Source: Bacteroidales bacterium F22
GTDB taxonomy: Bacteria > Bacteroidota > Bacteroidia > Bacteroidales > Bacteroidaceae
Direction of reading: 5' to 3'
Assembly (NCBI GenBank): GCA_029541985.1
Contig: CP095414.1
Location: 1,488,001-1,552,000, forward strand
DNA: 64,000 nucleotides
The notes below the pieces were generated by a model that was not told the origin of the DNA, searched no databases, and saw nothing but the letters and a program-made list of their open reading frames with translations. The number at the start of each line of letters is the position of its first letter. The stretch's first letter is position 1. A program made the translations under genes and the position numbers. Positions 3,620-22,560 of the stretch are shown in pieces.

Positions 3620-4783
3620 TCACTTAGCTATTGATTTTCTAGCAATATCAGAATATTTAAAATGAATAGATGCTACTTTAGAAGCCTCTTTCATTAAATA
3701 ATATTTTTCAGTAAAAATCAATGAATTTAATTCATTAGTTAATGCTTCTTCATCTTCACCAACAATAAAAGAACAATTACCATTAATATCCACATGATGC
3801 ATTCCATCTCCCCAATCTTTAAAAACGCATGGTAAAGAAAGACCAACGGATTGTTCCCACAAAGTTGAATGCCTTCCAGGGTAACAAGCTAAATCTGAAA
3901 TAGATAGAAATTGCATTACTTGTTCTGAGTCACACCACCCAACATAATGAATGTTTTTAGTTGTCATTAAAGGTTTGAGCTTTCTTTCACAAGAAGAAGT
4001 TATAGATCCAAAAACAATCAAATGCACATTCTTTTTTTCTATTTTCGAAAAAGCATTAATTAGAACATCCGTATTCTTGAACTCATCAAGTTTACCTCCA
4101 GAAATGATAACAAAATCATCTTCATTTATATTTAATTTCTTTCTAATATTATTTCTCAGTTGAGGAATATTTTGAGGAATTTTCTCATCATCAATCCCCA
4201 TAACTAATAAATCAATTTTAGATGATTTCATATGATACATTTCTTTAAGAAACTCACATCTAATAGGAGTAACTCCATAACACTTTTCGATATATGGTTC
4301 AAATTGATTTGCTATGACTCTCCATAATCCTTTGGATAAAACATATTTAGAAAAAAAATTCCTTGCAGTATTAGATAAATCAGCGTGAGAATCAGCAATA
4401 ATACGCACTTCAGGATTTTCTTTTTTATACCTAATTACAAATCTCGAATCCATATAAGTAATCCCATGAGAATAGATAATGTCTGGGCGTTCAGCAACCA
4501 ATATACTATACAAATTATTAAAACGACCTAATTTATCATTGACTTTATTCCAAAATCCTTTACCCTTAGCATCTATGCGATACAACTTATAACCATCTTC
4601 AGCTATTTTATTAAACTCGTGGTCATACATTACTATATCACCACTATCACTAAAATGCCTTAGAGAAGCAACGACAACAGTTTCTAAGCCCATTTTCACA
4701 TAATACTTTGGGAGAATATTGTCCTGATATGAGAAACCTTCAGTAAAGTTACTTTTAAGGCATAGAGATAAAATTTTAGTCAT
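3620..4783 (-). CDS. Glycosyltransferase family 4, capsule locus
   Basis: A GT-B glycosyltransferase of about 387 residues. I place the start at the ATG encoding MTKILSLCLKSNF, five bases after the stop of the upstream dehydrogenase. An in-frame upstream start would overlap that gene by 19 bases and adds only basic residues. The C-terminal domain contains GGKLDEFKNTDVLINAF and a late SISDLACYPGRHSTLWEQSVGLSLPCVFKDW stretch, which occupy the positions of the GT4 donor-binding motifs. The usual E-x7-E is degenerate: a Glu is present in LWEQS, while the region around CVFKDW differs from the consensus. The specific sugar is unknown. Base composition is strongly AT-rich. Confidence 0.85.
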   Translation of the reverse strand: MTKILSLCLKSNFTEGFSYQDNILPKYYVKMGLETVVVASLRHFSDSGDIVMYDHEFNKIAEDGYKLYRIDAKGKGFWNKVNDKLGRFNNLYSILVAERPDIIYSHGITYMDSRFVIRYKKENPEVRIIADSHADLSNTARNFFSKYVLSKGLWRVIANQFEPYIEKCYGVTPIRCEFLKEMYHMKSSKIDLLVMGIDDEKIPQNIPQLRNNIRKKLNINEDDFVIISGGKLDEFKNTDVLINAFSKIEKKNVHLIVFGSITSSCERKLKPLMTTKNIHYVGWCDSEQVMQFLSISDLACYPGRHSTLWEQSVGLSLPCVFKDWGDGMHHVDINGNCSFIVGEDEEALTNELNSLIFTEKYYLMKEASKVASIHFKYSDIARKSIAK

Positions 4784-21862: not shown

Positions 21863-22043
21863 CCCTATTTCTTTTGTTCCAACAAAAGAAGTAGGGGAAA
21901 GAAAAATGGCCAGCTGAACAAATTCGGGGGCGGACGGGCTCTTTTTTGCTGGGCTGCGGAACTCGCTCCGCTCAAACAGTCCTCGCCCCGGGCGCAAAAA
22001 AGAGACCGCCCACTGTTCCCCGAATTTGATAGGCTGGACCTAA
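21863..22043 (+). repeat. Double-hairpin dispersed element, copy A
   Basis: Two successive hairpins and a purine-rich linker. Hairpin 1 (21863-21896) has the stem TTCTTTTGTT/AACAAAAGAA extended by CCCTAT/GTAGGG. The linker contains AAAGAAAAAT. Hairpin 2 has an outer stem AAATTCGGGG (21920-21929) with CCCCGAATTT (22018-22027), GGGCGG with CCGCCC, and CTCTTTTTTGC (21939-21949) with GCAAAAAAGAG (21994-22004). These enclose a 41-nt core at 21950-21990 that starts TGGGCTGCGG and ends CCTCGCCCCG. Copy B, in the opposite orientation, shares 40 of 41 core bases but has different arms. Ends are approximate. Confidence 0.8.
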
Positions 22044-22046
22044 CTA

Positions 22047-22071
22047 AAAAAGAGGCGTCGAGCCTCTTTTT
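22047..22071 (+). terminator. Terminator after comF/element A
   Basis: Ten-base stem AAAAAGAGGC/GCCTCTTTTT with a GTCGA loop, T-rich on both strands, so it may work in both directions. Confidence 0.8.
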
Positions 22072-22102
22072 CGTTTATAGCGTGCACTGCTTGTTTTACT
22101 TA

Positions 22103-22327
22103 CTGCTTGACTTACAGACTGGTAGACTTGCATGTAGCTTAATTACTATTACAGACTGCTTGACTTACAGACTGGTGGACTTGCATGTAGCTTAATTACT
22201 ATTACAGACTGCTTGACTTACAGACTGGTAGACTTACATGTAGCTTAATTACTATTACAGACTGCTTGACTTACAGACTGGTGGTCTTACATGTAGCTTA
22301 ATTACTATTACAGACTGGTGGTCTCCG
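22103..22327. repeat. Four direct copies of a 53-bp repeat plus a fragment
   Basis: Units begin at 22103, 22156, 22209 and 22262, each exactly 53 bases, starting CTGCTTGACTTACAGACTGG and ending ATTACAGA. A shortened fifth copy begins at 22315, missing the CTTGACTTACAGA stretch. The copies differ mainly at four positions near the middle (TAGACTTGC, TGGACTTGC, TAGACTTAC, TGGTCTTAC). Each unit itself holds two TTACAGACTG words. There is no open frame through the array and no unique spacer. Confidence 0.9.
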
Positions 22328-22345
22328 TACTCCGTATACATAAAA

Positions 22346-22380
22346 AACGGGAGAGTAGGTTCGATACCTACTCTCCCGTT
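22346..22380 (-). terminator. Terminator of the korAB operon
   Basis: A perfect 15-bp stem (AACGGGAGAGTAGGT and complement) with a TCGAT loop. On the minus strand it is followed by TTTT. It lies beyond element B, about 180 bases after the korB stop. Confidence 0.8.
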
Positions 22381-22384
22381 ATTC

Positions 22385-22560
22385 TCGGCCTAACCAATTT
22401 GGGGGATTCAAGCAATGGATTAGAAGAGCGTCTCGGGGCGAGGACTGTTTGAGCGTAGCGAGTTCCGCAGCCCAGCTCTTCTAATTCATTGCGCCCCCAA
22501 ATTCGTGAAGCCCAATTTTTCTTTGCTTCGTTTCTTTTGTTTGGACAAAAGAAATGAAGA
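22385..22560 (-). repeat. Double-hairpin dispersed element, copy B (inverted)
   Basis: Read on the minus strand it has the same layout as copy A. Hairpin 1 has the stem CTTC, TTTCTTTTGT with ACAAAAGAAA, GAAG. The linker contains AAAGAAAAAT. Hairpin 2 has arms that differ from copy A but still pair. On the plus strand AATTTGGGGG (22396-22405) pairs with CCCCCAAATT (22494-22503). The 18-base arm at 22412-22429 pairs with 22475-22492 except at one position. The 41-nt core is at 22434-22474. The element begins at the stop codon of korB. Ends are approximate. Confidence 0.8.

Follow-up and report, generated by a model that had tools for sequence, protein, structure and literature searches.

REP sequences are dispersed, extragenic and palindromic, occur in multiple copies and sometimes as inverted pairs, and fold in a strand-specific manner; each is a short hairpin whose loop has 2-5 nt and whose foot reads GT[AG]G (PMC6006769). 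In integrons, the attC site lies behind a gene and its bottom strand is the folded one (PMC2727003). Here we describe a non-coding, dispersed element of about 170-200 bp, two copies of which are found in a 64,000-nt stretch (hereafter the window) of the genome of Bacteroidales bacterium F22 (contig CP095414.1).

Copies A (21863-22043) and B (22385-22560) are inverted relative to each other and have a common core of 43 nt, identical at 42 positions (21948-21990 and 22434-22476). Both had been noticed from the letters of the window alone (below, the sequence-only reading), with a core of 41 nt. A 34-nt core pattern matched twice in the window against 0 expected, and A and B are the only copies in the window's own genome, which is one 2.89-Mb contig. 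Each follows a stop codon in the direction of the gene, as also described from the letters: the hairpin of A begins 14 nt past the stop of a comF-like gene (21854), B begins directly at the stop of a porB-like gene (22561), and the gene 5' of each copy reads toward it. We take the first product to be ComF-like and the second to be the beta subunit of a 2-oxoacid oxidoreductase, names that go beyond the Pfam domains. The arms of A are unlike those of B, yet they are complementary inside each copy, the inner ones at 16 of 18 positions in A and 17 of 18 in B, and self-pairing outer arms are present in both as well (Table 1); the variable, self-complementary arms of the sequence-only reading are thereby borne out. 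Between the two copies (22096-22360) lies a 53-bp tandem repeat of four units, the last of them degenerate.

Table 1. Features of element copies A and B, in window coordinates.
Feature	Position	Strand	Basis
Copy A, pseudoknot stem 1: S 21869-21878, loop X 21879-21880, S' 21881-21890	21869-21890	+	
Copy A, S'' = third copy of the purine strand (AAAGAAAAA, 21898-21906); X' TGG 21907-21909	21898-21909	+	
Copy A, long imperfect hairpin: outer arms 21910-21929 / 22018-22037, inner arms 21932-21949 / 21994-22011	21910-22037	+	inverted repeats, fold
Copy A, invariant 19-nt apical loop AACTCGCTCCGCTCAAACA	21960-21978	+	
Terminator-like hairpin 3' of copy A (AAAAAAGAGGC...GCCTCTTTTT)	22046-22071	+	
Terminator-like hairpin 3' of copy B	22343-22383	-	inverted repeat
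Copy B, long imperfect hairpin: outer arms 22387-22405 / 22494-22512, inner arms 22412-22429 / 22475-22492	22387-22512	-	inverted repeats, fold
Copy B, invariant 19-nt apical loop AACTCGCTACGCTCAAACA	22446-22464	-	
Copy B, S'' (AAAGAAAAA, 22516-22524) and X' (TTGG, 22512-22515)	22512-22524	-	
Copy B, pseudoknot stem 1: S 22545-22554, X CCAA 22541-22544, S' 22531-22540	22531-22554	-	

An exact 31-nt core pattern matched 84 loci in bacterial genomes, assigned to Bacteroidota, Pseudomonadota, Nitrospirota, Nitrospinota, Campylobacterota, Bacillota (Lachnospiraceae), Patescibacteria including Saccharibacteria, and one Gastranaerophilales genome; a plasmid collection adds Fusobacteriota and further Bacillota. 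The family turns up sporadically in at least nine phyla, usually with several copies per carrier; many of these carriers are metagenome bins, for which single phylum assignments may be contaminated, and isolates and complete records are also included. Its distribution is patchy: the window's order has 17 carriers among 247 genomes, and the phylum to which one proteobacterial carrier belongs has 7 among 200. That a single hairpin was simply duplicated in place, in inverted orientation, would account for there being only two copies in the window's genome. This reading is refuted by the recurrence of the same loop and architecture, with independent arms, in at least nine phyla, and we give it practically no chance. 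The sequence-only reading had set a dispersed family against a core confined to two sites without covariation; the own genome does hold only two copies, but they belong to a wide, covarying family.

Copies having other closing stems revealed that the constant part of the element is a 19-nt apical loop, RACTCGCTNCGCTCARACA. The constant core proposed earlier is thus common to A and B, but only these 19 nt are invariant across bacteria, the remainder being one common closing stem. With one mismatch allowed, the 19-mer occurs 1-48 times per genome in 40 carriers, and the backwards control pattern found one site. Three mismatches (11 carriers) brought few new types, and among the matches listed almost all were exact or differed at position 1 or 16 only. 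E. coli gave no match at the sensitivity used. Rfam 15 gave none reaching the curated cut-off on either strand, on which ground the "skipping-rope" RNA and other known RNA motifs were rejected. In the open-access library searched, no paper on bacterial repeats contains the core string and no bacterial paper the loop or pseudoknot strings; subscription papers could still describe the element.

The 19-mer is also found in viral contigs. In L207, L210 and similar ones it lies inside an open frame (NSLRSNKPLE), lacks complementary arms and looks like a chance or unrelated match; representatives of these Campylobacter-like contigs were left out of the first stem tests. A group of Inovirus-like contigs with AACTCGCTNCGCTCAAACACTGGCGC (L219, L233, L245, L252, L274 and similar) changes at that point in the left flank and stays constant in the right, a switch that resembles a junction between phage and host or between modules; by eye, L233 was seen to encode a Zot-like protein. 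Viral contig L255 contains three tandem 60-bp units at 4147-4285, with one 19-mer in each.

Unlike the loop, the arms flanking the core are unrelated between lineages. In 75 of 90 dereplicated elements the element's own arms nevertheless pair better than 95% of swapped combinations, and in 61 they pair best of all. Where the closing stem is simple (29 elements), all four Watson-Crick pairs occur at the stem positions adjacent to the loop. The stems therefore covary, which supports the earlier proposal that the fold is under selection. Many Bacteroidota copies, L353-L375 included, have a recurrent internal loop of GCTA opposite TTAACGC, up to twice per hairpin; in some lineages the two sides trade places, as expected of a structural motif that can be read from both directions.

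Which strand folds was approached through mismatches flanked on both sides by two Watson-Crick pairs and read on the gene-sense strand. We counted 43 A·C against 15 G·T and 42 C·T against 14 A·G, at many positions and in many contexts, where base composition predicts ratios of 1.02:1 (p=3e-4) and 1.26:1 (p=0.004), respectively. The A·C excess persists in either half of the data, for both closing-stem classes and when the flanks are chosen more strictly (21:3); swapped arms show less of it (19:12). Since each A·C mismatch appears as G·T when the opposite strand is read, these mismatches are tolerated wobble pairs on the strand complementary to the gene, and it is this strand, not the mRNA, that appears to be selected to fold. 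Folding energies point the same way, the antisense strand folding better than the sense strand in 82 of 97 elements with DNA parameters and in 86 of 97 with RNA parameters; this set includes some viral duplicates (for example, one A·C site in L210 and two sites in L246), too few to alter the counts. More generally, the polarity of A·C versus G·T mismatches offers a way to tell the functional strand of a palindromic repeat. The polarity is alike for single-stranded DNA and antisense RNA and does not separate the two. On the antisense strand the loop reads TGTYTGAGCGNAGCGAGTT, and its centre, GCGNAGC, resembles the d(GCGAAGC) mini-hairpin, a well-known and very stable DNA structure whose stability generalises to GNA loops. 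Tails rich in TTTGCTTCGCTCG and CTCGCTTTCAGCAT words were seen 3' of elements L369-L372 (G031) and in L331 (Variovorax); their other strand reads GCGAAGC again.

The gene upstream of the element, in element orientation, reads toward it in 61 cases and away in 17; tandem contexts are sense in 26 and antisense in 6, and convergent contexts exceed divergent ones 27:6, all by simple ORF calls and with copies within one genome not fully independent. The preceding genes are unrelated to each other. A position directly behind genes in sense orientation is what would be expected of an element that, folded within the 3' UTR, governs the 3' end of the preceding gene's mRNA or how stable this mRNA is, and terminator-like hairpins do follow both window copies. 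Across the family such hairpins are not clearly enriched (13 of 69 on the sense strand versus 8 on the antisense), so that a following terminator was rejected as a general rule; moreover, the mismatch polarity favours the other strand, and a terminator or stabiliser has no need of an invariant 19-nt loop. The RNA 3'-end element among the earlier candidates is weakened by the wobble pairs on the strand complementary to the mRNA, and we regard it as clearly unlikely.

Upstream of the long hairpin, the sequence-only reading had recognised a hairpin and a linker. Both are present, but the AAAGAAAAAT linker repeats the purine strand of the hairpin a third time and, together with the TTTCTTTTGT hairpin, forms an H-type pseudoknot of the order S-X-S'-S''-X', in which S and S' make a hairpin with loop X, S'' is a further copy of S' and X' is complementary to X. 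A Parabacteroides example reads ACTTTTGG-CTTGAC-CCAAAAGT-AA-CCAAAAG-GTCAAG. In window copy B, X (CCAA) is complementary to X' (TTGG); in copy A, X' can pair with CCA at 21879-21881, making X:X' only 3 bp. The S/S'/S'' pattern is present in 49 of 87 real sequences and in none of 87 shuffled ones. When modules were swapped between elements, the own S'' copy (z=7.7) and the own X:X' pairing (z=5.6) stood out. S'' beats swaps both as a direct and as a mirror copy (z 8.3 and 10.6), neither being preferred (18:13). The module is missing from some copies, e.g., in Patescibacteria.

These third-strand relations bear on the main rival to a DNA element, namely that the strand opposite the gene is transcribed into a structured RNA, with the hairpin and a telomerase-type triple-helix (pyrimidine-purine-pyrimidine) pseudoknot, which acts on the adjacent gene or is itself selfish. 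In telomerase-type pseudoknots a pyrimidine-rich loop strand lies over a pyrimidine:purine stem, and the antisense strand of the element has this order, with both third-strand relations beating swaps. The wobble polarity falls on that strand too, and its energy advantage exceeds the shuffled control with RNA parameters and not with DNA parameters. Against such an RNA, we know of no promoter or transcript for the antisense strand of the element, tandem contexts provide no neighbour that would transcribe it, the adjoining genes are unrelated, and neither strand matches Rfam. On balance, we consider the antisense RNA rather unlikely.

Copy numbers differ sharply between relatives. Genome G031, from the window's family, carries 14 copies that resemble one another, of which nine lie within 24 kb, versus none in its congener G002, whose intergenic gaps are shorter at the places orthologous to the G031 elements. 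Genome G009, of the same family, has 17 copies in two gene-poor clusters (L394, 3135-10484, and L395, 2633-10391), nearly all on one strand and spaced by some hundreds of bases to a few kb, often 360-450 bp; the clusters look like a BIME-like array. Judged from the sequences, these patterns are amplification and turnover. Empty sites come only from a congener 70-78% identical, in which no exact insertion junction or target duplication could be read.

Sites behind genes, with a mismatch polarity consistent with a folded bottom strand, share the geometry of integron attC recombination sites (PMC2727003). However, the copies follow housekeeping genes, and neither the G031 nor the G009 clusters are gene-cassette arrays; for G031 an array was rejected on its Pfam neighbours (dnaN, dbpA, Fic, AAA and HU-type genes). 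Sites of the attC type conserve their R boxes and vary in their terminal structure, and the element is the reverse: its terminal loop is constant, its stem bases vary, and the family does not share a GCCTAAC-like word present at the base of copy B. An attC-like site is accordingly highly improbable.

A REP-like element moved by a RAYT or Y1 transposase would agree with the dispersed, extragenic, palindromic and multicopy character, the occasional inverted pairs and the strand-specific fold known from REPs (PMC6006769), and in a loose sense REP-like traits are all there: multiple copies, similar copies at unrelated loci and presence or absence between relatives (14 in G031 versus 0 in G002). 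Yet no Y1_Tnp (PF01797) was found in G000, G009, G461, G467, G478 or G486, with 2-22 copies each, a search that could miss a very divergent enzyme; G461 is a single contig with 14 copies. The loop has 19 nt versus 2-5 nt, the conserved part is the loop here and the stem within a REP family, and by eye no GT[AG]G foot was seen at the hairpin foot of 14 aligned G031 copies. A REP-type transposase target, another of the earlier candidates, consequently loses its support, since neither the window's genome nor carriers with 14-22 copies have the profile and REP features are missing, and we rate such a reading very unlikely. The element works like a REP-type dispersed palindrome and, by the features tested, is not a member of the REP family. 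Reverse transcriptase (PF00078) was likewise not found in G009, G451, G461, G464, G465, G467, G478 or G664. With both profiles absent from several carriers, a genome need not have a RAYT or a reverse transcriptase of its own to carry the element; both were rejected as mobiliser, and the Y1 and reverse transcriptase profiles revealed no mobilising enzyme in these carriers, though one acting from outside could still serve.

The reading we prefer, at a probability of roughly 45%, is that the element is dispersed and non-autonomous, that it persists and spreads as single-stranded DNA folded from the gene-complementary strand, and that it is recognised by its loop; a non-autonomous mobile element was also the best of the three candidates offered by the sequence-only reading. 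The element, a pseudoknot module followed by a long imperfect hairpin topped by the invariant loop, sits behind a gene, and the strand complementary to that gene's mRNA appears to be the one kept foldable. As folded single-stranded DNA it would spread and be kept, a trans-acting factor reading the loop and structure and not the stem sequence. Its handling may be akin to that of integron attC sites or IS200/REP hairpins, by a different enzyme. The computations show the family, its covariation, the pairing of the pseudoknot, the third-strand copy, the polarity of the strands, the bias in orientation and the differing copy numbers of congeners. The single-stranded step, the recognising factor and transposition itself are what we infer here, and close opposite-strand pairs argue against strict lagging-strand insertion. 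Somewhat more tentatively, we suggest a previously undescribed class of single-stranded DNA (or antisense-RNA) parasite, in which a trans-acting or universal host factor would recognise the 19-nt tip and the third-strand pseudoknot, so that palindromes under no other constraint could multiply and endure behind genes across bacterial phyla, small Patescibacteria genomes included. A near-constant 19-nt loop from Patescibacteria to Bacteroidota, on stems of up to about 60 bp that are free to vary, implies that something in very different cells reads the tip; finding this reader would expose a new single-strand mobilisation system or a new class of structured nucleic acid.

Compared with known systems, the element shares with telomerase-type H-pseudoknots of RNA the stem-loop-stem order and the pyrimidine-rich strand over a pyrimidine:purine stem, on the antisense strand and with triple pairing as a candidate, but comes without a known telomerase or reverse transcriptase partner. 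Like the end hairpins of IS200/IS605 and their MITE-like derivatives, it is a single-strand hairpin with bulges that may exist as non-autonomous copies; unlike them, it shows no defined ends or target duplication, and several carriers lack the Y1 transposase. With attC it has in common the place behind a gene and variable stems read by structure, and it differs in having no cassette array, a constant terminal loop and an added pseudoknot. The RAYT-associated REP, REPIN and BIME sequences are also extragenic dispersed palindromes with multiple copies, local clusters, inverted pairs and presence or absence between relatives. In contrast to these, several carriers of the element have no RAYT, its 19-nt loop is conserved while its stems are free, it bears a pseudoknot module, and the same loop recurs across phyla.
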